44,867 bases of DNA from Bacteroidales bacterium. Its GTDB lineage: Bacteria > Bacteroidota > Bacteroidia > Bacteroidales > VadinHA17. The notes beneath the pieces were generated by a model. It made no database searches. It saw only the letters and a program-made list of their open reading frames with translations, and was not told where the DNA came from. The DNA is taken from assembly GCA_027067975.1 (NCBI GenBank), contig JAMOUS010000124.1:1-44867 (forward strand), given 5' to 3'. The stretch's first letter is position 1, and every line of letters begins with the position of its first letter. Shown here in pieces: positions 1 through 14,010 of this stretch. A program made the position numbers and the translations under genes.

Positions 1-345
1 ATGCAGCGTCTCCTTACCTCCATGCCCTATGCCCCCAAACAGTTCCGTCTCGCAAAACAAACCCTCCTCGAAAGGATACGCACCGAACGCATCACAGGAG
101 AAAAGATCTACACCTCGTGGCTCGAGAACCGCGATCGCGGCATCGACCATGACGTGCGGGAAGATATCTACCACGAGGTGGAGAAGATGAGCGCCGAAGA
201 CCTCCGCCATTTCTTCGATGAACACATCAAGAACAAAAAATACACCCTCCTGGTGTTGGGTGCGAAAGGATCGCTCGACCGCGACCTGTTACGCCGCTGG
301 GGAGAGGTGGAGGAAGTCTCCCTGCGCGATCTCTTCGGATACTGA
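1..345 (+). CDS. M16 (insulinase-like) family peptidase, C-terminal fragment, truncated by the window edge
   Basis: Open from base 1 to the stop at 343-345; C-terminal M16-like sequence (TERITGEKIYTSWLENRDRGIDHDVREDIY). The gene most likely starts upstream of the window. Confidence 0.6.
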   Translation: MQRLLTSMPYAPKQFRLAKQTLLERIRTERITGEKIYTSWLENRDRGIDHDVREDIYHEVEKMSAEDLRHFFDEHIKNKKYTLLVLGAKGSLDRDLLRRWGEVEEVSLRDLFGY

Positions 346-373
346 TCACAGAAATGAAAACCGCTTACCAACC

Positions 374-1051
374 ATGAAAAGGCTTATTCCGTTCGTGATC
401 CTCCTGTTGCTCGCCGTTGCCGGCACGGCGCAACAGGTGTTCGTGCAATATGGCAAGGCATCGTTCTATGCCGACAAGTTCAACGGCCGCAAGACCGCCA
501 GCGGCGAGATCTTCCGCAACGACCAGCTCACGGCGGCACATCTGACGCTGCCCTTCGGGTCGATGGTGAAGGTGACCAACCTGGAGAACCACCGCTCGAT
601 CGTCGTACGCATCAACGACCGCGGGCCGTATGTGGAGGGGCGGATCATCGACCTCACGAAGACCGCTGCCCGCATGCTGGGGTTTGTCGACCAAGGCACG
701 GCCCGCGTAAAGATCGAACTGGTGAACGGCGCCGCCGCCCCTGCGGCGGCAGCCCCCGCCGCCACCGCCCCGGAAAGCTCCCGCACCTATTACACTTTCA
801 TCGCCCGCCGCACCCACCCGAAAGGCTTCGGCATCCAGGTGGGCAGCTTCCGCGAACTCTCCAACCTCATGAACATCACCGACAAGCTGCCGGAGCGGGA
901 GAAGAAAAGGCTGGTGATCCAGGCGGCCGAGGTGAATCGCATCCGCGTCTACCGCGTCATCCTGGGCCAGTATGCCGATCGCCGGGAGGCGGAGAAAGAG
1001 CTGAAGAAGGTGCGCAGGACCTACCCCGACGCCTTCATCATCACCTATTGA
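374..1051 (+). CDS. RlpA-like (double-psi beta-barrel) protein with C-terminal SPOR domain
   Basis: Signal peptide MKRLIPFVILLLLAVAGTAQQ; GKASFYADKFNGRKTASGE...LPFGSMVKVTNLEN...VVRINDRGPY is the RlpA core; GFGIQVGSFRE...YRVILGQYADRREAEKEL is SPOR-like. Confidence 0.9.
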   Translation: MKRLIPFVILLLLAVAGTAQQVFVQYGKASFYADKFNGRKTASGEIFRNDQLTAAHLTLPFGSMVKVTNLENHRSIVVRINDRGPYVEGRIIDLTKTAARMLGFVDQGTARVKIELVNGAAAPAAAAPAATAPESSRTYYTFIARRTHPKGFGIQVGSFRELSNLMNITDKLPEREKKRLVIQAAEVNRIRVYRVILGQYADRREAEKELKKVRRTYPDAFIITY

Positions 1052-1070
1052 ACCGGAAAAATACGATACC

Positions 1071-2513
1071 ATGGTGCATAGAAGGGATTTTATCAAGAAG
1101 AGTGCGGTGGCGGCGGGGGCCGTCACCCTGGGCACGCCGGCCGTGCCGGCCTTCCTGCGCGGGGGCTCCTACCCCTCACGCCGTCCGCCGCTGCGGGAGC
1201 GCCGTTTCGTCAGTGAGGCGGTGGAAGAGACACTCCGCCGTGTGAGCCGTGACATCGCCGACCCCGAGCTGCGGTGGATGTTCAACAACTGCTTCCCCAA
1301 CACCCTCGACACAACGGTCTTTTACAAAGAGGAGGGAGGCCTCCCCGACACGTTCGTCATCACCGGCGACATCCACGCCATGTGGCTGCGCGACTCGTCG
1401 GCCCAGGTATGGCCGTATGTCGCGCTGGCGGGCGGTGACCCGTCACTGCGCAAGCTGCTCGAGGGCGTGATCCGCCGCCAGACCCGCTGCATCCTCATCG
1501 ACCCATATGCCAACGCCTTCAACGACGGTCCCACCGGCAGCGAATGGGAGAAGGACCTCACCGCGATGAAGCCCGAGCTGCATGAACGCAAGTGGGAGGT
1601 CGACTCCCTCTGTTACCCCATCCGTCTGGCCCACGGCTACTGGAAGAGCACCGGCCATGACGCTTTCATGGACGACGCCTGGCGGCGGGCCATGCGGAGC
1701 GTGATCCGCACCTTCCGCGAGCAGCAGCGTAAGGACGGCCCCGGCCCTTACACCTTCATGCGGGTCACCGCCCGCCAGACCGACACCGTCGCCGGCATGG
1801 GCTACGGCAACCCCTGGCGCCCCAACGGCATGATCTGCTCGGTGTTCCGCCCCTCCGACGATGCCACGATCTTCCTCGGCCTCGTTCCTTCCAACTTCTT
1901 CGCCGTGAAGGCTCTGCGGCAGATGGCCGAGATGGCCGGCCATGCCGGCGACAGCGGCCTCGCCGGCGACGCCCTTGCCCTCGCCGCAGAGGTAGAGAAG
2001 GCCCTGCGGCAGTACGCCGTTGTCGACCATCTCCACTACGGCAAGGTCTATCCCTTCGAGGTGGACGGCTACGGCAACGCCCTCTTCATGGACGACGGCA
2101 ACATCCCCAGCCTGCTGGCGATGCCCTACTTGGGGACCGTCGCCTCCGACGACCCGGTGTACCGCAATACGCGGCGTTTTCTGCTTTCGGGCGACAATCC
2201 CTGGTTCTTCCGCGGCAAGGCCGCCGAAGGCATCGGCAGCCCCCACACCGGCCGCGACATGATCTGGCCGCTGGCCCTCCTCGCCCGCACCCTCACCAGC
2301 GACAACGAAGAGGAGATCCTCCAAAACCTGCGGTGGCTCGTCCGCTCCAACGCCGGCACCGGCTTCATGCATGAGTCGTTCCACAAGGACGATCCCTCCC
2401 GCTTCACCCGCAAGTGGTTCGCCTGGGCCAACACCCTCTTCGGCGAACTCATCCTGAAACTTCATGCCGAACATCCCGCCCTCCTCCAGAAAAGCATGTC
2501 GGAAATCCAATAA
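1071..2513 (+). CDS. Glycoside hydrolase family 125 (exo-alpha-1,6-mannosidase-like) with Tat-like signal
   Basis: GH125-type motifs DTFVITGDIHAMWLRDSSAQVWPY and DPYANAFNDGPTGSEW; twin-arginine N-terminus MVHRRDFIKKSAVAAGAVTLG. Confidence 0.9.
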   Translation: MVHRRDFIKKSAVAAGAVTLGTPAVPAFLRGGSYPSRRPPLRERRFVSEAVEETLRRVSRDIADPELRWMFNNCFPNTLDTTVFYKEEGGLPDTFVITGDIHAMWLRDSSAQVWPYVALAGGDPSLRKLLEGVIRRQTRCILIDPYANAFNDGPTGSEWEKDLTAMKPELHERKWEVDSLCYPIRLAHGYWKSTGHDAFMDDAWRRAMRSVIRTFREQQRKDGPGPYTFMRVTARQTDTVAGMGYGNPWRPNGMICSVFRPSDDATIFLGLVPSNFFAVKALRQMAEMAGHAGDSGLAGDALALAAEVEKALRQYAVVDHLHYGKVYPFEVDGYGNALFMDDGNIPSLLAMPYLGTVASDDPVYRNTRRFLLSGDNPWFFRGKAAEGIGSPHTGRDMIWPLALLARTLTSDNEEEILQNLRWLVRSNAGTGFMHESFHKDDPSRFTRKWFAWANTLFGELILKLHAEHPALLQKSMSEIQ

Positions 2514-2563
2514 AATTCCTATTTTTGCCCTCAAACCGCCTAAAACGATTTAACCACACATCC

Positions 2564-3757
2564 ATGGAAAAACGTTCAAAACTTCAGGTGGCAGCGGTGT
2601 TCCTGGCCTTTCTGGCCATGGGCTTCGGCGACGCCGTAGGGCCTTTTGTGGGGCTGGTGCGTGAACATTACCAGACCACCAACTTTCTGGCCACGCTCAT
2701 TCCCTCGATCAGCCTGCTGATGTTCCTGGTGCTCTCGATCCCGGTGAGCATCTACCAGGACAAAAGAGGGAAGAAGCATGTGATGGTGCTGGGGCTGACC
2801 GTGGCACTCATCGGCCTGGTGATCCCCATCATCGGCGGGCTGAAGGCCGACGACCCCGACTCGTTTCCCTATTCGCTTTTCCTGTTGACGGTGTTGCTGC
2901 TGGGCGCCGGCGCCACCATCCTGCAGGTGGCGGGCAACCCCATCATGCGCGACGTCTCTCCCGAAGGGAAATACTCCCGCAACCTTTCCCTGGCCCAGTT
3001 CATCAAGGCCATCGGCTCGCTGTCGGGGCCGCTGATCCCCGTCGCCGCCGCCCGTTACTTTGACGCCGGCTGGGAGATCATCTTCCCCATTTACTCCATC
3101 TCCCTGCTCATCACCCTGGCCATCCTCATCCCTACCCCCATCCATGAGAAAAAAGATCCCAACTCCCATCCCGCCACCTTCCGCTCGAGCTTCCGCCTAC
3201 TCACGAATCCTTTCGTGCTGCTGATGACCCTCGGCATTTTCGTGTACGTGGGAGCGGAGGTGTCCGTCAGCTCGGGCATCCCCCTTTACCTCGAAGACAA
3301 ATACGGCATCGACATCCAGAAGCTCGGCCTGGCCGGAACGGGACTCTTCTTCCTTTTCCTGATGACAGGCCGTTTCCTGGGGGCCATCATCCTCTCGTGG
3401 ATGAAAGCCCAGCGTTTTCTGGTGATCACCTCCCTCTTCGCCGTGGCCGGCCTGTTGCTCCTGCTCTTCGGCGGCAAGCCCCTGGCCATCTTCAGCATCT
3501 CGCTCATCGGCATCAGCTTTGCCAATATCTTTCCTCTGATCTTTTCCATCACCATCGACCGGATGCCGGAACACACCAACGAGCTCTCCGGCCTGATGAT
3601 CTCCGCCATCTTCGGCGGGGCGGTGCTGCCGCCGATCATGGGGAAAGTGGCCGACCTCACCAACACCGGCATCGGCCTGTTGGTACCCCTGGCGGCCATC
3701 CTCTACATCCTCTACCTCTCATTCTATGTCTCCGGCAAAACAACAGTGAAAGCATAA
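2564..3757 (+). CDS. MFS transporter (sugar permease-like)
   Basis: About 12 hydrophobic segments; first in-frame ATG at 2564 (MEKRSKLQVAAVFLAFLAMGFGDAVGPFVG). Confidence 0.85.
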   Translation: MEKRSKLQVAAVFLAFLAMGFGDAVGPFVGLVREHYQTTNFLATLIPSISLLMFLVLSIPVSIYQDKRGKKHVMVLGLTVALIGLVIPIIGGLKADDPDSFPYSLFLLTVLLLGAGATILQVAGNPIMRDVSPEGKYSRNLSLAQFIKAIGSLSGPLIPVAAARYFDAGWEIIFPIYSISLLITLAILIPTPIHEKKDPNSHPATFRSSFRLLTNPFVLLMTLGIFVYVGAEVSVSSGIPLYLEDKYGIDIQKLGLAGTGLFFLFLMTGRFLGAIILSWMKAQRFLVITSLFAVAGLLLLLFGGKPLAIFSISLIGISFANIFPLIFSITIDRMPEHTNELSGLMISAIFGGAVLPPIMGKVADLTNTGIGLLVPLAAILYILYLSFYVSGKTTVKA

Positions 3758-3791
3758 GATAACCGAACAACATTCCAATCAAACAGAAGCC

Positions 3792-4757
3792 ATGAAAAAA
3801 GCGGTAACCATCGGCATTGACATAGGAGGGACCAACACCGTGATGGGCGTGGTCGACCGTGACGGGAACATCCTGGCCGAAAACCGGATCTCCACCACCG
3901 ACTATCCCGATATCGCCGACTATGTGGCGGCGCTGCACCAAGCCTTCACCGCCGCCCTGGCGGAGGCGGGCAGCGAGGTCGAGCTGAAGGCCATCGGCAT
4001 CGGCGCCCCCAACGGCAACTACTACCACGGCACCATCGAATACCCGCCCAACCTCATCTGGGAGGGAGTGATCCCCCTGTGCGAGATGATCTCGAAGAAC
4101 GTCGACGTGCCGGTGGTGCTCACCAACGATGCCAACGCCGCCGCACTGGGCGAGATGATCTACGGCGGCGCCCGCAACATGAAGAACTTCATTGTCTATA
4201 CGCTGGGCACAGGGCTGGGCAGCGGCATCGTCATCAACGGCGAGGTGTTGTACGGTTCCACCGGCTTTGCCGGCGAGATCGGCCACATCATCATGGTGCC
4301 GGGGGGACGCGACTGCGGCTGTGGCCGCCAGGGATGCCTGGAGACCTATGTCTCGGCCACGGGCATCGTCCGCACCGTCGAGGAGCTGCTCGCACAACGG
4401 CGTGACCCCAGTCCCTTGCGCAAAGTACCTCCCGAAACACTCACCTCCAAGATGATCACCGAGGCGGCCCAGCAGGGCGATCGCATTGCCCTCGAAGCAT
4501 TCGACCGCACCGCCGACATGCTGGCCCTCTCGATCGTCAATTCGGTGGCCTTCTCCAGCCCCGAGGCGATCTTCCTCTTCGGCGGCCTCTCCAACGCCGG
4601 GAAATATCTTTTCGACCCCGTCGAAAAATATGTCAACGAAAAGATCCAGACCATCTTCAAGGGCACGGTACGCATCCTCCCCTCGGAGATCCCCGAGAAC
4701 AACGCCGCCATCCTCGGCGCCAGCGCCCTCGCCTGGAAAGAGATCGAAAAACAGTGA
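3792..4757 (+). CDS. ROK family sugar kinase (ROK1)
   Basis: GIDIGGTNTVMGVVD phosphate motif; LGTGLGSGIVINGEVLYGSTGFAGEIGH; zinc motif CGCGRQGCLE. Confidence 0.92.
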   Translation: MKKAVTIGIDIGGTNTVMGVVDRDGNILAENRISTTDYPDIADYVAALHQAFTAALAEAGSEVELKAIGIGAPNGNYYHGTIEYPPNLIWEGVIPLCEMISKNVDVPVVLTNDANAAALGEMIYGGARNMKNFIVYTLGTGLGSGIVINGEVLYGSTGFAGEIGHIIMVPGGRDCGCGRQGCLETYVSATGIVRTVEELLAQRRDPSPLRKVPPETLTSKMITEAAQQGDRIALEAFDRTADMLALSIVNSVAFSSPEAIFLFGGLSNAGKYLFDPVEKYVNEKIQTIFKGTVRILPSEIPENNAAILGASALAWKEIEKQ

Positions 4758-4759
4758 CC

Positions 4760-5413
4760 ATGGAACCTTTCAAGATCCCCCGACTGCCGTTCGATGATCC
4801 CGCCCAGGATCCTGCGGGTCTCTCGGCCCACATGGACACCCTCCCGAAGGAAGAGATCGGCGTGATCAACTGGCCCGAGTTCTCTTACAAACCCGAAGTG
4901 CACTTCGCCGTGGCCTGGGCGCCGGGCATGATCGTGGTGAAGTATTACGTGCGCGAAGAGGTCATCCGCGCCCGTTTCACGGAGGACAACGCGCCGGTGT
5001 GGAAGGACAGCTGTGTGGAGTTCTTTGTCGCCCCCGGCGACGACGGCGTCTATTACAACTTCGAGATCAACTGCATCGGCACCTGCCTGGCCGAAAAAGG
5101 GCTCTCCCGCTCCCCGCGCGAGAAGCTGCAGCCCGAGGTGATCGAACATATCAAACGTTTCCCCTCCCTCGGCGTAGCCCCCTTCGAAGAAAAGAAGGGC
5201 GACTTCTCCTGGGAGCTGCTGGCCATCATACCGGTCGCTTCGTTCGTCGACCATGCGGTGGAGCCCGATTTGCAGGGAAAGACCTTCCGCGCCAACTTCT
5301 ACAAATGCGGTGACGAGCTCTCCAAACCCCATTACCTCACCTGGAACCCGGTCCGTACGCCGCAACCCGACTACCACCGGCCGGAGTTCTTCCGCGAGAT
5401 CCTCTTCGTCTGA
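4760..5413 (+). CDS. CBM9-like (carbohydrate-binding family 9-like) protein
   Basis: WKDSCVEFFVAPGDDGVYYNFEINCIGT and final PDYHRPEFFREILF are typical of CBM9-like proteins; ATG at 4760 (GTG at 4754 overlaps the ROK1 stop). Confidence 0.75.
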   Translation: MEPFKIPRLPFDDPAQDPAGLSAHMDTLPKEEIGVINWPEFSYKPEVHFAVAWAPGMIVVKYYVREEVIRARFTEDNAPVWKDSCVEFFVAPGDDGVYYNFEINCIGTCLAEKGLSRSPREKLQPEVIEHIKRFPSLGVAPFEEKKGDFSWELLAIIPVASFVDHAVEPDLQGKTFRANFYKCGDELSKPHYLTWNPVRTPQPDYHRPEFFREILFV

Positions 5414-5466
5414 TCTCTCTTCCTCGCCGGTTTTTTCCCCTCTTTCACATAGGGCAACACCCCTGT

Positions 5467-5497
5467 TTTGAGAATTCCTCCTTTTTTTGTATCTTTG
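5467..5497 (+). promoter_or_regulatory. Bacteroidetes-type promoter (TTTG-N19-TATCTTTG) ahead of PFK
   Basis: TTTG 5467-5470, 19-nt spacer, TATCTTTG 5490-5497; matches the -33/-7 consensus TTTG / TAnnTTTG. Confidence 0.75.
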
Positions 5498-5541
5498 GTT
5501 CGATTTGTTTGGAACTAAAAATAATCAAAAAAACCACTGAC

Positions 5542-6741
5542 ATGAAACAGGGAAATGCGATCATAGGACAGTCGGGAGGCCCCACGGCCGTGATCAACGC
5601 CTCGCTGGCAGGCGTGGTGGAAGAGGCCCTCAGAACCCCCGGCATCCGGAACATCTACGGCATGAACTACGGCATCGAAGGGTTCATGAACGAAGAGATC
5701 ATCGACCTGGGACGTCAGCCCAAAGAGATCATCGAAGGATTGAAACACACCCCCTCGTCGGCCCTCGGCTCCACACGCCACAAGGTGCAGGACGAGGATT
5801 TCCCCCGCATCCTCGAGGTGCTGAAGAAATATGACATCCGTTATTTCTTCCTCATCGGCGGCAACGACACCATGGACACCGTCAACCGGGTCGAGCAGTT
5901 CTGCCGCGAAGCCGGCTATGAGATGATCGGCGTCGGCATCCCCAAGACCGTCGACAACGACCTCTTTGGCACCGATCATACGCCGGGTTTCGCCTCGGCC
6001 GCCCGTTCCAACATCCTCAACGTCTTGCAGGCCGGATTCCTCGCCCGCGACATGAAACGGGTCGATCAGTTCGTCATTTACCAGACCATCGGCCGGGATG
6101 CCGGCTGGCTCGCCGCCGCCACCGCCATGGCCAAAAAGGACGAAGACGATGCCCCCCATCTCATCTACGCTCCCGAGTTCGTCTTCGACAAGGAAAAGTT
6201 CCTGGCCGACTTCGAGAAAGTTTACAAGAAGTACGGCTGGGTCTCGATCGTCTGCGGCGAAGGGATCAAGTATGCCGACGGCACGCCGGTGAGCGCCTCC
6301 AAGGTGAAGGACAAGTTCTCCAACGTCGAGTTCGGCGCCATGGGGGGCACCAGCGTCGCCATCAACCTCCACCGCATGATCACCGAAAAGTTCGGCTTCC
6401 GCGGTGAGTTCCAGATCACCGAGTCGCTTATCATGTCGGCCGAGGACCGTGTCCTCGAACGGGATGTCGAGGAGGCTTACCAGTGTGGCGTCAAGGCCGT
6501 CGAGCTCGCCCGCGACGGCGTCAGCGGCATGATGGTCGCCATGAAACGCACCTCCAACGACCCCTATACCATCGAATATACCCAGGTACCCCTCAACGAC
6601 GTAGCCGTCAAGGCCAAGCCGATGCCGCTCGAGTATTTCAACGAAGAGGGCAACTTCGTCAGCGAGAAGTTCATCGAATACATGAAACCCCTCACCGGAC
6701 CCCTGCCGGAGTTCGTGAGGCTGCAACCGATCAAACCCTGA
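5542..6741 (+). CDS. 6-phosphofructokinase (ATP/PPi-type PFK family)
   Basis: IGQSGGPTAVINASLAGVVEEA, FLIGGNDTMDTVNR, GIPKTVDNDLFGTDHTPGFASAA are PFK signatures. Confidence 0.92.
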   Translation: MKQGNAIIGQSGGPTAVINASLAGVVEEALRTPGIRNIYGMNYGIEGFMNEEIIDLGRQPKEIIEGLKHTPSSALGSTRHKVQDEDFPRILEVLKKYDIRYFFLIGGNDTMDTVNRVEQFCREAGYEMIGVGIPKTVDNDLFGTDHTPGFASAARSNILNVLQAGFLARDMKRVDQFVIYQTIGRDAGWLAAATAMAKKDEDDAPHLIYAPEFVFDKEKFLADFEKVYKKYGWVSIVCGEGIKYADGTPVSASKVKDKFSNVEFGAMGGTSVAINLHRMITEKFGFRGEFQITESLIMSAEDRVLERDVEEAYQCGVKAVELARDGVSGMMVAMKRTSNDPYTIEYTQVPLNDVAVKAKPMPLEYFNEEGNFVSEKFIEYMKPLTGPLPEFVRLQPIKP

Positions 6742-6770
6742 AACCACAGAACATCTAAAAACGCAAAACC

Positions 6771-7538
6771 ATGGAACACACTTTCAACAAGGTCGTCCTC
6801 TCGCTCCACGCTCATCCCGATGATACCGAGGCGTTCTGCGCCGGCACGCTGAAGCTGCTCAAGGACAAAGGCTACAAGATCGTCATCGCCACAATGACCG
6901 CCGGCGGGATGGGCGGCATCAACTCGACCGAGGAGAAGACCATCGCCCTCCGCAAGGAGGAGGCCCGCAAAGCCGCCGCCGTCCTCGACGCCGAATATTA
7001 CTGTCTCGACGGTCGCGACGGCTTCCTCTTCGACACCACCGAGATGCGGCTGAAGACCATCTCCCTCATCCGCAAGGTGCGGGCAGGCATCGTCATCACC
7101 CACCTGCCCATCGACTACCACAGCGACCATCGCACCACCTGTAATATCGTCGAGTCGGCCGCGATGATCTCGTCACTGCCCAACGTGCCGGTGGAAGAGG
7201 AGCCCCTGGAGATCACCCCGCTGCTCTATCACTCCGCACCGCTGACCCTCTCCGACCCCATCGGCAACCGGATCGCTCCCCCCACCTTCTTCGTCGATAT
7301 CACCAGCGCCATCGAGACCAAGATGGACATGCTTGCCCATCACCAGTCGCAGATGGACCTTATGCGCCACATGCACAAGATGGACGACTTCTTCGGCGAG
7401 ATGAAGAAGAACAATGTCGATTACGGCAAGATGGTAGGCGTCGACTACGCCGAACCTTTCTGGCAGCACCTGGGCGGCGGGTTCCAGAAAGATCCCCTCA
7501 TCCAGGAAGAACTGAAAGAATTCATCAAAACCCTTTAA
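6771..7538 (+). CDS. PIG-L/LmbE family deacetylase
   Basis: HAHPDDTEAFCAGTL (AHPDD metal motif) and ITHLPIDYHSDHRTTCNIV (HxDH motif). Confidence 0.92.
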   Translation: MEHTFNKVVLSLHAHPDDTEAFCAGTLKLLKDKGYKIVIATMTAGGMGGINSTEEKTIALRKEEARKAAAVLDAEYYCLDGRDGFLFDTTEMRLKTISLIRKVRAGIVITHLPIDYHSDHRTTCNIVESAAMISSLPNVPVEEEPLEITPLLYHSAPLTLSDPIGNRIAPPTFFVDITSAIETKMDMLAHHQSQMDLMRHMHKMDDFFGEMKKNNVDYGKMVGVDYAEPFWQHLGGGFQKDPLIQEELKEFIKTL

Positions 7539-7549
7539 CCTGAAAAGCC

Positions 7550-8566
7550 ATGAACCTGAACGAGAAGAAGTATTCGCAATACGCACTGGTACGTGAGATG
7601 CTGGAGACTTCGGATGTGATCCGCAAGTTCGATCCGGCTGCTTCGGAGCGTTTTGTCCAGCCGATCCGCAGTAAGAAAGGCCTGTTCCTCACCGGCGAGG
7701 GGAGCAGCCGCATCTTCCCTGCCAAGCGCACCCTCACCGCCTCGCTGCAGGAGGGGGTGCCGGTACCCATCTTCACCGAAGGAGCCACGCAGGCTCTGGA
7801 ATACAAGTTCGACGACCTGGCCGTCTTCGGCGCCTCCAACTCGGGCAAGACCAAAGAGGTGGTACGCCTCTTCAAACACCTGAAGGAGAGCGGCCACACC
7901 GCCTTCTTCGGTCTCACCGCCAACAGCGGCACGCCCCTCCAGGACCTCGCCCTCGACACCCACGTGCTGGGCTGTGGCAAAGAGGACGCCGTCGCCGCCA
8001 CCAAATCGGTCATCGAACAGGGCCTATTCTATGACAGCCTCTACCGCCACCTCACCGGCAAGAAGATGCCCGGCCTCGACGAATTGGCCGACAAGGTCGA
8101 AGAGGCCATGACCCTCCGCGTCGACAGCAGCCTCGTCGAAAAGATGAAAAATGCCGGGATGATCTACTTCGCCGGCCGCAATACCGGCGTCGCCGAAGAG
8201 CTCACGCTCAAGACCAACGAGATCACCCGCAAGAAATCCGACTACCTCGAAGGCACCTATGCCGCCCACGGCATTGAAGAGGTGATGAACCCCGACGAGG
8301 TCGTCATCGTCGTCGACCCCTTCGAGAGCGAAGAGGAGAAGTTCCAGGAGGTGCTCGTCAAAGGTGTCGGCATGACCGTCGTGGCCATCTCACACCGCCA
8401 GACCAGCTTCCCCACCATCCTCATCCCCGACGGCGGAGCATACAAAGACTATGTAGAACTGGCCGCCGGATGGAACGTCCTCGTCGAGATCGGCATCGCC
8501 CTCGGCATCAACCTCGACAAACCCGAAAGGGCCCGCAAGGTGGGGAACGAATACACCGGAGATTAA
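7550..8566 (+). CDS. SIS-domain phosphosugar isomerase/deaminase-like protein (GlmS isomerase-domain type)
   Basis: Two SIS-like halves: FGASNSGKTKEVVRLFKHLK...GLTANSGTPL; GCGKEDAVAATKSVIEQ resembles the GlmS region; C-term LDKPERARKVGNEYTGD. Confidence 0.85.
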   Translation: MNLNEKKYSQYALVREMLETSDVIRKFDPAASERFVQPIRSKKGLFLTGEGSSRIFPAKRTLTASLQEGVPVPIFTEGATQALEYKFDDLAVFGASNSGKTKEVVRLFKHLKESGHTAFFGLTANSGTPLQDLALDTHVLGCGKEDAVAATKSVIEQGLFYDSLYRHLTGKKMPGLDELADKVEEAMTLRVDSSLVEKMKNAGMIYFAGRNTGVAEELTLKTNEITRKKSDYLEGTYAAHGIEEVMNPDEVVIVVDPFESEEEKFQEVLVKGVGMTVVAISHRQTSFPTILIPDGGAYKDYVELAAGWNVLVEIGIALGINLDKPERARKVGNEYTGD

Positions 8567-8596
8567 GCCAGGCTCCCTTTTTGATCCCTCATTGGG

Positions 8597-8632
8597 AAGA
8601 AGACCCGGGTCATGCCCGGGTCTTCTTTTTTT
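8597..8632 (+). terminator. Intrinsic terminator after the SIS gene
   Basis: Perfect 13-bp stem AAGAAGACCCGGG (8597-8609)/CCCGGGTCTTCTT (8615-8627), 5-nt loop TCATG, T-tract 8626-8632. Confidence 0.93.
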
Positions 8633-8657
8633 GGTTCTTTTTTATACGAACTTTTTT

Positions 8658-8665
8658 TACATTTG
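8658..8665 (+). promoter_or_regulatory. Candidate -7 element (TACATTTG) for ROK2
   Basis: Exact TAnnTTTG 22 bp before the ROK2 ATG; the -33 partner is poorly spaced (about 24 nt). Confidence 0.4.
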
Positions 8666-8686
8666 CCCGGAACAAAACCTTTCTTT

Positions 8687-9661
8687 ATGAAAAAACATGT
8701 TGCCATCGGCATCGATATCGGCGGCACCAACACGGTGTTCGGCATTGTTGATAAAAAAGGCAATTTCCTGGCCGAAGGGAAGATGAAGACCCGCGACTAC
8801 GGCGAGATCGAGGTCTTCCTCGCCGCCCTCAACGAGAAGGTGCGGCTGGCCTTGCGCCGGCTCAACGAGAAGGTGTTCGTCGAAGGCATCGGCATCGGCG
8901 CGCCGATGGGCAACATCAACAAGGGCACGATCGAATATGCGGCCGACCTGCCCTGGAAGGGGGTGATTCCCCTGGCCGATCTTTTCAAACAATACACCTC
9001 GCTGCCGGTGATCGTCACCAATGATGCCAATGCGGCCGCCATCGGCGAGATGATCTACGGCGGTGCCAAGGGGATGAAGAACTTTGTGGTGATCACGCTG
9101 GGCACGGGGCTGGGCAGCGGCTTCGTCGTCAACGGCGAGCTGCTCTACGGTGCCGACGGCTTCGCCGGCGAGATCGGCCACACCTCCATCCGCCCCGGTG
9201 AGAGCAACCGCCAGTGCGCCTGCGGCCGCAAAGGATGCCTAGAGACCTATGTCTCGGCCACCGGCATCAAACGCACCGTCTTCAAGCTCCTCGGCGACAT
9301 GATCGAAGACAGCGTCCTGCGCAACTACAGCTTCAACGAACTCACCGCCGCCGACATCAGCGAAGCCGCCAAGAACGGCGACCCCGTCGCCCTGGCCGCT
9401 TTCGAACATACCGGCAAAATGCTCGGCTACAAACTCGCCGACGTTGTCGCCCACACCAATCCCGAGGCGATCTTCCTCTTCGGCGGCCTCACCCTCTCCG
9501 GCGAGCTGATCTTCGAACCCACCCGCCGCCACATGGAACAGAACCTCCTCTCCATCTACAAAGGCAAGGTGAAACTCCTCCCCTCCAAACTCAATACCCA
9601 GAACGCCGCCGTCCTCGGCGCCAGCGCCCTGGTGTGGAACATGGAAAACCATAAGAAGTAA
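8687..9661 (+). CDS. ROK family sugar kinase (ROK2), paralogue of ROK1
   Basis: MKKHVAIGIDIGGTNTVFGIVD; LGTGLGSGFVVNGELLYGADGFAGEIGH; CACGRKGCLE zinc motif. Confidence 0.92.
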   Translation: MKKHVAIGIDIGGTNTVFGIVDKKGNFLAEGKMKTRDYGEIEVFLAALNEKVRLALRRLNEKVFVEGIGIGAPMGNINKGTIEYAADLPWKGVIPLADLFKQYTSLPVIVTNDANAAAIGEMIYGGAKGMKNFVVITLGTGLGSGFVVNGELLYGADGFAGEIGHTSIRPGESNRQCACGRKGCLETYVSATGIKRTVFKLLGDMIEDSVLRNYSFNELTAADISEAAKNGDPVALAAFEHTGKMLGYKLADVVAHTNPEAIFLFGGLTLSGELIFEPTRRHMEQNLLSIYKGKVKLLPSKLNTQNAAVLGASALVWNMENHKK

Positions 9662-9693
9662 CCCCGTCATTTTTTCGTATCTTGGCAGAAAAA

Positions 9694-10092
9694 ATGGCCG
9701 GAGGTGCACATATCTTCCTGCGTATTCTGATGATCACCGTCGAATCGATCATCTTCGCTCTGGCAGGGGCCTTGTTGCGCCCTTACTTGCCCCCCACACG
9801 CCACAAGATCTCCTACCTCCTGCTCAAGGTCAGCTATCTTCTCTACCTCTTCACCCTCATGGCTCTGCTCTATTTCCTCGCCTTCTACCCGCAAGAGCTG
9901 GATGAATATTTCAGCAATCTTCTCTTCTTTTCGCTCCTCTTCTCAATGATCTTCCCCTCCGGTGCCATGCTCGCCCGCAAGAAGATCAAACACAAGAGAA
10001 CGCTATACAACTATTTTTTCACCCTCCTCAACCTGCTGATCGCGGCCGCCTACATCTACCTGTGGGCGGATATCCGAGCCCTTTACGGTTGA
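9694..10092 (+). CDS. Small multi-pass membrane protein, function unknown
   Basis: ATG at 9694 (the track start at 9682 is TTG); about 4 hydrophobic segments; no recognised domain. Confidence 0.65.
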   Translation: MAGGAHIFLRILMITVESIIFALAGALLRPYLPPTRHKISYLLLKVSYLLYLFTLMALLYFLAFYPQELDEYFSNLLFFSLLFSMIFPSGAMLARKKIKHKRTLYNYFFTLLNLLIAAAYIYLWADIRALYG

Positions 10093-10111
10093 AAGGACAA
10101 AACGCACGACC

Positions 10112-11761
10112 ATGCTGAAAGAGACACTTACCGGATTCATCCGCAACGGCATCGAAAAGGGCTGGGACATCAAGGCCCTCTCCAACTATCGGGGGGACGA
10201 CTTCACCTACCGTGAAGTCGCCACGCTGATGGCCCGTCTGCACCTTCTCTACCGCGAGGCCGGCATCCGCGAGGGCGACAAGATCGCTCTCGTCGGCAAG
10301 AACTCGGTCCACTGGGCCGTCATCTACCTGGCCACTGTCACCTACGGAGCGGTCATCGTGCCTCTGCTGCCCGACTTCCGGCCGGCGGACATCCAAAACC
10401 TCCTCGACCATTCCGACTCGCTCCTGCTCTTTGCCGAGAAGAGCCTGTTCGAGCCCCTCGACACCCAGGCCTTCCCGAAGATCCGTGCCGCCCTGGCCGT
10501 CGACGACTTCTCCCTCCTTTTCTCGCGTGACGAGTCCCTCGCTTCTATTGTCACCGAATGGGACGGTCTCTTCGCTTCCCGCTACCCCGAAGGGTACCGC
10601 CGCAACGATCTGGACCTTCCCGAGATCCCCAACGACCGGCTGGCGGTGATCAGCTACACCTCCGGCACCACGGGCAATTCGAAAGGGGTGATGCTCTCGC
10701 ACAACTCGCTGGCCGCCAATGTGCGCTTTGCCCACCGTCACATGCCGCTGCAGGCGGGCGACCGCATCGTCTCCTTCCTGCCGCTGGCCCATGCCTACGG
10801 CTGCGCCTTCGAGTTCCTCTTCCCCTTCACTCTCGGCTGCCATATCACCTTCCTCACCAAGACCCCCTCGCCGCAGATCATCACCAAGGCCTTCGCAGAG
10901 ATACGCCCGCGTCTCATCCTATCAGTGCCGCTGGTGATCGAAAAGATCTACAAGAAAAAGATCATGCCCGCCCTCGACAAGCCGCTCCTGAAGGTGCTGC
11001 TGCGCATCCCCGGCATACGCGGCCTAGTGCACCGCTCCATCCGCAAAAAGATTCTCGAAGTGTTCGGCGGCAACTTCCATGAGATCGTCATCGGCGGTGC
11101 CGCCTTCAACCCCGAGGCCGAAGTCTTCTTCCACCGCATCGGCGTGCCCTTCACCGTAGGCTACGGCATGACCGAGTGCGGACCGCTCATCAGCTATGCC
11201 CCCTGGAACGACCGTAAGCTCTTCTCCTGCGGACGTCCTGTCGACACCCTCGAGGTGAAGATCGACTCTTCCGACCCCGAGCATGAGGCCGGCGAGATCC
11301 TCGTCCGCGGAGAGAACGTCATGGAAGGATACTACAAGAACGAAGAGGCCACCCGCCAGGTGCTCGACGACGAAGGCTGGCTCCATACCGGCGACCTCGG
11401 CACTATGGACAAGGAACAGAACATCTTCATCCGCGGCCGCAGCAAGAACATGATCCTCGGCCCCTCGGGACAGAACATCTACCCCGAAGAGATCGAGGCC
11501 GTCCTCAACAACCAGCCCCTGGTGGCCGACTCGCTCGTCGTCAACCGCGAAAACCGCATCGTCGCCCTCGTCTATCCCGACCAGGACGAGGTGCGGGCAA
11601 GAAAGATCTCCGAAGAAGAACTTCCCAAAGTGATGGACGACCTGCGGCGCCAGGTGAACGGCGAGCTGTCCGCCTACATGCAGATCCACCGCATTGAGAT
11701 CATGAAAGAGGATTTCCAGCGTACGCCCAAGAAGAACATCAAACGCTTCAAGTATCAGTGA
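10112..11761 (+). CDS. AMP-dependent synthetase / long-chain fatty acid-CoA ligase-like
   Basis: AMP-binding motif ISYTSGTTGNSKGVMLSHNSL; GYGMTECGPLISY; GWLHTGDLGTMDKEQNIFIRGRSKNMI. Confidence 0.92.
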   Translation: MLKETLTGFIRNGIEKGWDIKALSNYRGDDFTYREVATLMARLHLLYREAGIREGDKIALVGKNSVHWAVIYLATVTYGAVIVPLLPDFRPADIQNLLDHSDSLLLFAEKSLFEPLDTQAFPKIRAALAVDDFSLLFSRDESLASIVTEWDGLFASRYPEGYRRNDLDLPEIPNDRLAVISYTSGTTGNSKGVMLSHNSLAANVRFAHRHMPLQAGDRIVSFLPLAHAYGCAFEFLFPFTLGCHITFLTKTPSPQIITKAFAEIRPRLILSVPLVIEKIYKKKIMPALDKPLLKVLLRIPGIRGLVHRSIRKKILEVFGGNFHEIVIGGAAFNPEAEVFFHRIGVPFTVGYGMTECGPLISYAPWNDRKLFSCGRPVDTLEVKIDSSDPEHEAGEILVRGENVMEGYYKNEEATRQVLDDEGWLHTGDLGTMDKEQNIFIRGRSKNMILGPSGQNIYPEEIEAVLNNQPLVADSLVVNRENRIVALVYPDQDEVRARKISEEELPKVMDDLRRQVNGELSAYMQIHRIEIMKEDFQRTPKKNIKRFKYQ

Positions 11762-12453
11762 GCGAAGGTCGCTTCGATACGGTGATCATCGTGGCGGGTG
11801 GCGAGGGCCGCCGCCTGGGGGCGCCCGTCCCCAAGCAGTTCCTTCCCCTTGGCGGCGTGCCGGTGTTGTGGCATACCCTCCTGGCCTTTCACCATTACGA
11901 CCCGTCGCTGCAGATCATCGTAGTGCTTCATCCCGCCTGGCAAGATCACTGGCAGGAGACGGCAGCACACCTCTCTCCTGCCATCCCCTATGCGGTTGCC
12001 GGCGGCGGTGAGACGCGCTTTCATTCGGTACGCAACGGGCTGGCGCTGGCCCGCGGCATCTTCACCGCCGTCCACGATGCCAGCCGGCCTCTCATAAGCC
12101 CGGCCCTCCTGCAGCGATGCTTCGACGCCGCCCGCCGCCACGGCAATGCCGTACCTGCCATCCCCGTCACCGACTCCCTGCGGGAGGTCACCGCCGCCGG
12201 CAACCGCCCCGTCAACCGGGAACGCTTCCGCAGCATCCAAACCCCCCAGATCTTCCCCACCCCCCTGCTCAAAAAAGCTTTCGAACAACCCTACCGCCCC
12301 AACTTCACCGACGAGGCCACGGTCGTGGAAAGCCTGGGCGAAAAGATCCACCTCGTCGAAGGAGAACGCAGCAACCTCAAGATCACCACCCCCTTCGACA
12401 TGGAAGTGGCCGAAATGCTCATCCGCCAGCAACGAAAAAAACAACACCCATGA
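11758..12453 (+). CDS. ispD: 2-C-methyl-D-erythritol 4-phosphate cytidylyltransferase
   Basis: IIVAGGEGRRLGAPVPKQFLPLGGVPVLWHTL; VHDASRPLISP; GTG start overlaps the upstream stop. Confidence 0.9.
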   Translation: MSEGRFDTVIIVAGGEGRRLGAPVPKQFLPLGGVPVLWHTLLAFHHYDPSLQIIVVLHPAWQDHWQETAAHLSPAIPYAVAGGGETRFHSVRNGLALARGIFTAVHDASRPLISPALLQRCFDAARRHGNAVPAIPVTDSLREVTAAGNRPVNRERFRSIQTPQIFPTPLLKKAFEQPYRPNFTDEATVVESLGEKIHLVEGERSNLKITTPFDMEVAEMLIRQQRKKQHP

Positions 12454-13580
12454 AAAAGTCCCGCACGCTCCTCCTGACCCTCTTCAGTATCCTGCTCCAG
12501 CTGTCCCTCTCCGGCCAATCATACCTCATGTATATCGGCACTTACACCACCTGGAAAGAAGGAGGAAAAGGCATTTATGCCTACCGTTTCCTCCCCGACA
12601 GCGGCAAGATCGTCTATGCAGGGCTCACCCATGGCATCCGCAATCCCTCTTTTTTGCTGGCGGATCCTTCCGGACAATACCTGTATGCCGTCAATGAGTT
12701 GGGCAACCGTCATGGTGGCGTCTCTTCGTTCAGTATCGAACGTCCCGGCGGCAAGCTCACGCCGCTCTCGACACAACCCACCGGCGGCGACGCGCCGTGT
12801 CACCTCACCCTTGACGAGGCGGGCACCACCCTCTTCACGGCCAACTATGCCGGCGGCAGTGTGTCGGTGTTTCCCGTCACGGAGGGCCGCATCTGGGAGC
12901 GCACGGCCCTCATCACCCATGAGGGTCACGGTCCCATCGCCGCCCGTCAGCGGGGACCCCATCCCCATGAGGTGGTCATCAACGCCGTCGACCATCTGCT
13001 CTACGTGCCTGACCTGGGCCTCGACAAGGTCTTCCTGTACCGCCCCCGCCAAGCACAGCAGCCTCTGCCGGCCGCCCAGCCTTATGTGACCACCGCCCCC
13101 GGCGGCGGCCCCCGCCACCTCGCCTTCTCCCCCGATGGATATGAGATGTATGTGGTCCTGGAGATGGCCTCGCGACTCGCTCATTTCCACCGCGACGACC
13201 CCGCCACCCCCTGGCAGGAGATCGGCAGCGTCTCCCTCCTCCCCGAAGACGCCGACGCCACCGGCAACACCGGCGCCGAAGTGGTCATCACCCCCGACGG
13301 GAAATACCTCTATGCCTCCAACCGCGGCCACAACAGCATCTCCCTCTTCTCGCTCGAACGTGACGGAAAACCTGTCATGACAGGCAACTATCCCTGCGGC
13401 GGCAAAACACCCCGCTTCTTCACCCTCGATCCCACCGGAAAGTACCTCCTCGTGCTCAACCAGGACTCGAACAATATGGTCCTCTTCCTGCGAAAGAACG
13501 ACGGCTCGCTTGTCCCCACCGGCACCGACATCTCCGTCCCCAAGCCCGTATGCGCGGTGTTCGTGCCGGCCAACCTATGA
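12450..13580 (+). CDS. Secreted lactonase-family (6-phosphogluconolactonase-like beta-propeller) protein
   Basis: Signal peptide MKKSRTLLLTLFSILLQLSLSGQS; YIGTYT...GIYAYRF, GGDAPCHL, GGGPRHLAFSPDG; ATG at 12450. Confidence 0.88.
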   Translation: MKKSRTLLLTLFSILLQLSLSGQSYLMYIGTYTTWKEGGKGIYAYRFLPDSGKIVYAGLTHGIRNPSFLLADPSGQYLYAVNELGNRHGGVSSFSIERPGGKLTPLSTQPTGGDAPCHLTLDEAGTTLFTANYAGGSVSVFPVTEGRIWERTALITHEGHGPIAARQRGPHPHEVVINAVDHLLYVPDLGLDKVFLYRPRQAQQPLPAAQPYVTTAPGGGPRHLAFSPDGYEMYVVLEMASRLAHFHRDDPATPWQEIGSVSLLPEDADATGNTGAEVVITPDGKYLYASNRGHNSISLFSLERDGKPVMTGNYPCGGKTPRFFTLDPTGKYLLVLNQDSNNMVLFLRKNDGSLVPTGTDISVPKPVCAVFVPANL

Positions 13581-13684
13581 CTTTTTACACTCTTTAACCT
13601 TCTTTTAACCGCACTCCACACGCTTGGCACAGTATTTGTCCTTTTATAGGCACAGGCAATCTTCCACATATACCTCTCCAGGGC

Positions 13685-13718
13685 AGCCAGGCGTCACGTG
13701 CACCTGGCTTTATTTTTT
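13685..13718 (+). terminator. Probable intrinsic terminator downstream of the lactonase
   Basis: AGCCAGG (13685-13691)/CCTGGCT (13703-13709) followed by TTATTTTTT. Confidence 0.65.
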
Positions 13719-13805
13719 ACCGGCAGTTCGGAGTTCATTGTATTGAGTCAATGACACCCGGCTTTCGCGAAGCTTTGGCTGAAGCGAAAGACGATGGTGG
13801 AATTG

Positions 13806-13839
13806 ACCCTGACCGGAGCCGCAGGCGGAGCGTCAGGGT
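13806..13839. repeat. Inverted repeat ACCCTGAC...GTCAGGGT
   Basis: Perfect 8-bp arms 13806-13813 and 13832-13839 around a GC-rich core CGGAGCCGCAGGCGGAGC. Confidence 0.7.
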
Positions 13840-13856
13840 TCTGCAAAAGTGACTGA

Positions 13857-13928
13857 AGTACTTCGAGTGCCTGGAGTGCCTTAAGTACTTCGAGTACTTT
13901 GAGTACTTGGTGTTCGGAGTATGGAGTT
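13857..13928. repeat. Degenerate 9-bp tandem array (AGTACTTCG-like)
   Basis: AGTACTTCG/AGTGCCTGG/AGTGCCTTA/AGTACTTCG/AGTACTTTG/AGTACTTGG at 13857-13910, then TGTTCGGAGTATGGAGTT. Confidence 0.85.
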
Positions 13929-13936
13929 GTTCTACT

Positions 13937-14010
13937 TTTGTCTTTTGCCTTAACCCTTTTGCCTTCTTTTGTCTTTGTCCTTTTATCTTTTGTCTCGTTT
14001 TGGCCTTCTT
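13937..14010. repeat. Degenerate CTTTTGT-type short-period tract
   Basis: cttttgtcttttgccttaacccttttgccttcttttgtctttgtccttttatcttttgtc: about 7-bp periodicity. Confidence 0.6.

Follow-up and report, generated by a model that had tools for sequence, protein, structure and literature searches.

A widely conserved bacterial gene cassette that looks like the amino-sugar deacetylating and deaminating enzymes of heat-loving archaea

We describe a cluster of three genes, encoding a 6-phosphofructokinase (PFK), a PIG-L deacetylase and a SIS-fold protein, in a Bacteroidales genome. The cassette is real and widely conserved, and by sequence profiles and structural models it looks like the enzymes with which heat-loving archaea deacetylate and deaminate amino sugars. 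Our main reading, to which we give a probability of roughly 0.6, is a cytoplasmic operon for the catabolism of N-acetylhexosamine, most likely N-acetylglucosamine (GlcNAc) from glycoprotein-type glycans. The N-acetylhexosamine would enter through an MFS carrier. PIG-L would strip off the acetyl group by means of a zinc-bound water, and a ROK kinase, acting either before or after this step, would add a 6-phosphate. The SIS protein would open the ring and convert glucosamine-6-phosphate to fructose-6-phosphate and ammonia, and a PPi-type PFK would carry fructose-6-phosphate to fructose-1,6-bisphosphate.

Glycoproteins and chitin store much carbon and nitrogen in the form of amino sugars. When the use of these sugars was surveyed in gut bacteria, NagB and AgaS served as the signature genes (PMC5583593), so a conserved cassette built on other enzymes would escape such a survey. 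If the reading is right, it would provide functions for one SIS and one PIG-L family, neither of them named by curated NCBIfam models, and would mean that the archaeal amino-sugar logic is also present in bacteria. Mainly in the openly accessible literature, we found no paper on PIG-L with SIS, NagB, ROK or bacillithiol in Bacteroidetes.

Gene layout, transcription signals and the phosphofructokinase

The window, meaning the whole stretch of 44,867 nucleotides that was analysed, is contig C124 of a 2.79-Mb draft genome (93% complete, 311 contigs), which was interrogated family by family. The features of interest are as follows.

1071..2513, + strand: GH125 alpha-mannosidase with a Tat-like signal, upstream neighbour (PF06824, 552 bits; TAT_signal_seq)
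2564..3757, + strand: MFS sugar transporter of the GluP/FucP/NagP group (PF07690)
3792..4757, + strand: ROK sugar kinase 1, ROK1 (PF00480, 237 bits)
4754..5413, + strand: CBM9-like protein (PF16011, 239 bits)
5467..5497, + strand: Bacteroidota-type promoter, TTTG-N19-TATCTTTG (pattern match)
5542..6741, + strand: PPi-type 6-phosphofructokinase (NF010675, 424 bits, cut-off 273)
6771..7538, + strand: PIG-L/LmbE N-deacetylase (PF02585; zinc ligands H15, D18 and H120, base D17)
7550..8566, + strand: SIS-fold protein, GlmS/GlmD/NagB-II-like (PF01380; best match 2cb0 by profile and fold)
8598..8635, + strand: intrinsic terminator, 13-bp perfect stem followed by a T-run (hairpin scan and sequence)
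8687..9661, + strand: ROK sugar kinase 2, ROK2, beyond the terminator (PF00480, 208 bits)

The first-pass annotation had described a unit running from a consensus promoter through three closely spaced genes to a perfect 13-bp terminator, with ROK genes on both sides, and each of these elements was recovered. The promoter fits the Bacteroidota pattern exactly and lies 44 nt from the PFK ATG; with a spacing of 17-23, the 44.9-kb window has only 4 matches to this pattern, both strands counted. A sigma-70 scan alone found 6 sites against 3.1 +/- 1.7 expected, not clearly more than chance. PFK, PIG-L and SIS lie on one strand, separated by gaps of 29 nt (PFK/PIG-L) and 11 nt (PIG-L/SIS). The terminator reads AAGAAGACCCGGG-TCATG-CCCGGGTCTTCTT and then a T-run, and its strong hairpin (17 pairs counted at 8594-8630) ranks first among 14 terminator-like matches in positions 1-14000. 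Both flanking ROK genes match PF00480 and their products are 55% identical; either could supply the kinase. ROK1 scores 238 bits to “ROK_glcA_fam”, under the cut-off of 260. The MFS carrier likewise stays below all curated cut-offs (gluP 92.6 bits, NagP 53.3 bits).

The start of the CBM9-like gene overlaps the end of ROK1. This protein has no evident signal peptide, which would place it in the cytoplasm, and the gene is an operon member conserved in 39 related loci.

The PFK starts at ATG 5542, whereas the mechanical open reading frame starts at TTG 5509. Aspartate and lysine at two positions usually separate PPi-dependent from ATP-dependent PFKs. In the alignment, the protein carries both residues, with GGND and PKTVDND replacing GGDG and PGTIDND, and its score is above the cut-off for the PPi-type model (PRK14072). 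Judged by its sequence, the window PFK is thus pyrophosphate-type.

The genome holds six PFK genes, the operon's own and five other matches, so the operon PFK is probably dedicated. With so many PFKs, fructose-6-phosphate would need no enzyme of its own, a point in favour of a different hexosamine. Here PIG-L and SIS would turn N-acetylgalactosamine (GalNAc) or galactosamine into tagatose-6-phosphate, and the dedicated PFK would be a tagatose-6-phosphate kinase. We take GlcNAc as the first choice of substrate and GalNAc as its main rival, which we still find rather unlikely; no tagatose-bisphosphate aldolase is present among the annotated neighbours.

The PIG-L deacetylase and the SIS protein

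The PIG-L protein scores above the PF02585 cut-off. Its HxDD and distal histidine, the zinc site of the PIG-L superfamily, are intact, and H15, D17, D18 and H120 are invariant in 21 homologues; the residue roles follow published work on the superfamily (PMC4101496). By family profile, the best PDB relatives are archaeal diacetylchitobiose deacetylases (Dac; 8bgn, 1.6e-24). The predicted model (pLDDT 91) gave Thermus TT1542, a Bacillus BshB-type enzyme and Pyrococcus Dac as the top Foldseek matches. Dac thus comes first by profile, and TT1542 and the BshB-type enzyme come first by fold with near-equal scores. As far as the model goes, PIG-L is equally close to BshB-type enzymes and to Dac, and the fold favours neither.

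PIG-L and SIS both stay below the cut-offs of all curated NCBIfam models. For PIG-L, the best of these matches is TIGR04001 (BshB1), at 116.9 bits, and this match, with the BshB-type enzyme among the top folds, would suit a PIG-L working in the synthesis of a low-molecular-weight thiol of the bacillithiol type, in a neighbourhood that is incidental. Such a role is scarcely credible: the score lies under the cut-off of 182.5, and BshC is absent in 12 of 13 genomes, the sole exception being a Fibrobacterota record that also carries a true BshB1. A thiol-glycoside substrate, which had been named beforehand as a finding that would overturn the amino-sugar proposal, is disfavoured by the same absence of BshC.

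The SIS protein has 338 residues and consists of the SIS region only, with no glutaminase domain. Its best match is 2cb0, titled as the glucosamine 6-phosphate deaminase of P. furiosus, both by profile (3.1e-12) and by Foldseek comparison of the model (pLDDT 94; 9.4e-18, TM 0.73). The suggested comparison with archaeal GlmD therefore came out as proposed, GlmD being the closest fold. Residues E481, K485, E488, H504 and K603 of E. coli GlmS align with E217, K221, E224, H240 and K330 of the SIS protein, and this catalytic set, together with the phosphate-binding serines and threonine, is invariant in 34 homologues. These features are those of a SIS-type glucosamine-6-phosphate deaminase, and deamination is the direction that we would expect because there is no glutaminase domain.

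The same active-site set as in GlmS could also serve synthesis. In an anabolic or recycling scheme, SIS would combine fructose-6-phosphate with ammonia to give glucosamine-6-phosphate, and the PFK would run toward fructose-6-phosphate; PPi-type PFKs are reversible. We consider this very improbable, as synthesis offers no obvious place for a neighbouring deacetylase and sugar kinases, and the transporter, glycosidases and ROK regulators nearby point to catabolism.

Other SIS families were compared on active-site residues, and on these grounds identity with AgaS and with FrlB was rejected. Neither of the E. coli proteins has the full GlmS set, and both are without the K603 equivalent. AgaS also misses the SxS-T phosphate motif and scores only 11.6 bits against the SIS family profile, while FrlB departs from SIS at most of 12 compared positions, including the K485 and K603 equivalents. 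The lack of AgaS hallmarks in a protein that retains K603 and SxS-T argues against the GalNAc route. For NagB-II (NF046059), the SIS protein reaches 35.6 bits against a cut-off of 430.

In one locus (L061:8001-9998), SIS and ROK2 share one open frame of 665 codons, in which the SIS part is without the otherwise invariant C-terminal lysine. We set this fusion aside as “Rosetta-stone” evidence; with a single metagenome-assembled contig and a lost lysine, it may be an artefact of assembly or decay.

Conservation, genomic context and source of the substrate

All related loci were retrieved through the SIS gene, and evidence of conservation can therefore come only from the genes around it. Of the 54 loci from the genome collection, 38 have PFK, PIG-L and SIS in this order and 39 have ROK2 directly 3' of SIS, which bears out the expected co-occurrence of PIG-L, SIS, ROK and PFK. 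The trio is found in Bacteroidales and in records titled Spirochaetaceae, Fibrobacteres and Chlorobiota, although the records outside Bacteroidales are metagenome-assembled and their titles may be wrong. The Chlorobiota-titled locus (L034, genome G299) has contigs and coordinates identical to those of G212, which belongs to the same family as the window. Within Bacteroidales, common descent is enough to explain part of the synteny, in which a small membrane protein, an AMP-ligase and IspD lie downstream. The loci of Spirochaetota and Fibrobacterota are stronger evidence, because other neighbours surround the trio there. Pairwise distances of PFK, PIG-L and SIS correlate at r = 0.83-0.84, above all 2000 permutations; this shows joint inheritance and not function, and relatedness alone contributes to it.

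In two Spirochaetota loci, ROK-type proteins with an N-terminal helix-turn-helix-like segment were found directly upstream of PFK and overlapping it (L066:4935-6050 and L078:340-1332). These are probable repressors of the operon.

Five Bacteroidales loci (L052, L059, L060, L062 and L080) keep ROK-CBM9-SIS-ROK and are missing PIG-L and PFK. Three of them form one clade nested among carriers, which suggests loss of the two genes. Genomes with SIS and ROK and without the operon PIG-L have no close PIG-L elsewhere in the genome, so SIS can be of use in the absence of deacetylation. In another locus (L058, G307:C1 4428-4698) PIG-L is in fragments, and PFK, SIS and both ROK genes remain. Separately, in L075 and L085-L091 (Bacteroidales), a SIS orthologue 53-59% identical to that of the window lies directly 3' of a DUF4954 (PF16314) gene, with neither PIG-L nor PFK near it.

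The loci that lose PIG-L and keep ROK and SIS would fit a pathway for mannose or another neutral hexose, where ROK makes mannose-6-phosphate, SIS acts as an isomerase to fructose-6-phosphate, PFK follows and PIG-L is unrelated. Mannosidases adjoin the operon as well, GH125 in 9 related loci and GH92 in 3 of the 54. Even so, this is distinctly unlikely: a type I phosphomannose isomerase is already present in 8 of 8 genomes, PIG-L is part of the core trio across phyla, and SIS retains the full GlmS amino-sugar machinery.

Across loci, the adjoining glycosidases belong to GH125, GH92 and GH29, with GH109 in one distant locus; they are mainly mannosidases and fucosidases, and no chitinase or hexosaminidase is seen among the annotated neighbours. 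This set suggests a glycan source for the N-acetylhexosamine of our preferred reading, namely glycoprotein or host-type glycans, since these carry N-acetylhexosamine, mannose and fucose. The distant locus (L049, the same place as L083) holds the trio with a GH109 gene of the alpha-N-acetylgalactosaminidase type, which adjoins the operon and favours GalNAc, together with a sulfatase, an APH-family kinase and a NagB-like protein. The APH family includes a proven glucosamine kinase, encoded beside a SIS protein in actinobacteria (PMC6520443); by analogy, a glucosamine kinase near the trio is a lead only. The NagB-like protein is one of several of roughly 780 residues in different genomes. Its gene at L083:14171-16492, in the same cluster as the PIG-L/SIS trio, gives no Pfam match at 0.001, and the L049 copy reaches only 194 bits to a glucosamine-6-phosphate deaminase-like model.

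The first-pass annotation saw no canonical nagA or nagB in the window, and we agree. Elsewhere in the genome, which is a 93% complete draft, contigs C287 and C90 carry the nagB matches, and the search for NagA gave no more than a weak match on C178. The nagB proved to be a NagB-PIG-L fusion of 630 residues, whose neighbours are a ROK gene and what is probably a fragment of a solute transporter; two contig ends that apparently overlap (L002 on C287, L003 on C90) each hold part of the fusion gene. The nearest relative, G295, has NagA. At more than 150 bits, NagA occurs in 25 of 295 Bacteroidales genomes, that is in 4 of 7 operon carriers and 21 of 288 others; because the genomes are related, these counts are given without a p-value, and G294, among the seven carriers, has a broken PIG-L. 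Three carriers (G022, G136 and G320) are without NagA and NagB at good scores.

Replacement of NagA/NagB as a general rule is rejected on these data. The operon goes with amino-sugar use in general, beside NagA/NagB in many genomes, and does not replace them. The amino-sugar proposal thus stands in its co-occurrence, its likeness to Dac and GlmD and its intact, invariant catalytic residues, and fails as a stand-in for missing enzymes. With NagA enriched in carriers and the NagB fusion at hand, the pathway would in part duplicate existing capacity for GlcNAc. A second hexosamine such as GalNAc would explain why the operon is often accompanied by NagA and NagB.

Comparison with known systems

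The closest likeness is to the chitin catabolic pathway of Thermococcales, with Dac (TkDAC), GlmA and GlmD (PMC4101496, PMC3512248). Both systems have a PIG-L deacetylase and a SIS-fold deaminase, or a candidate for one, and, as had been proposed, the archaeal pathway supplies the nearest solved structures, for PIG-L by profile and for SIS by profile and fold. Thermococcus sugar kinases are ADP-dependent, whereas the window's operon has ROK kinases and a PPi-PFK, and no exo-glucosaminidase (GlmA) or chitinase is seen beside it. We tentatively entertain, as a possibility and not as our expectation, a bacterial route parallel to Dac-GlmD, with deacetylation first, then phosphorylation, SIS deamination and a PPi-dependent commitment step, in one cassette of several phyla.

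The Shewanella Nag pathway comprises NagB-II (SIS), the novel kinase NagK and NagP (PMC2996990). It is alike in its SIS-family deaminase, separate sugar kinase and MFS permease, and differs in that the window has PIG-L and a SIS protein far below the NagB-II cut-off. Deacetylation in Shewanella is NagA-type.

In the Aga pathway of E. coli (AgaA, AgaS), a deacetylase and a SIS-family deaminase/isomerase also lead into a PFK-type step. AgaA is an amidohydrolase, and AgaS is without the lysine and phosphate-motif residues of the window SIS.

Finally, the Bacteroidota NagB-PIG-L fusion (PRK02122 / NF002557) has a classical NagB fold instead of SIS, and a distant PIG-L. It is nevertheless alike in coupling a glucosamine-6-phosphate deaminase to a PIG-L domain, and it does so in the same genome.
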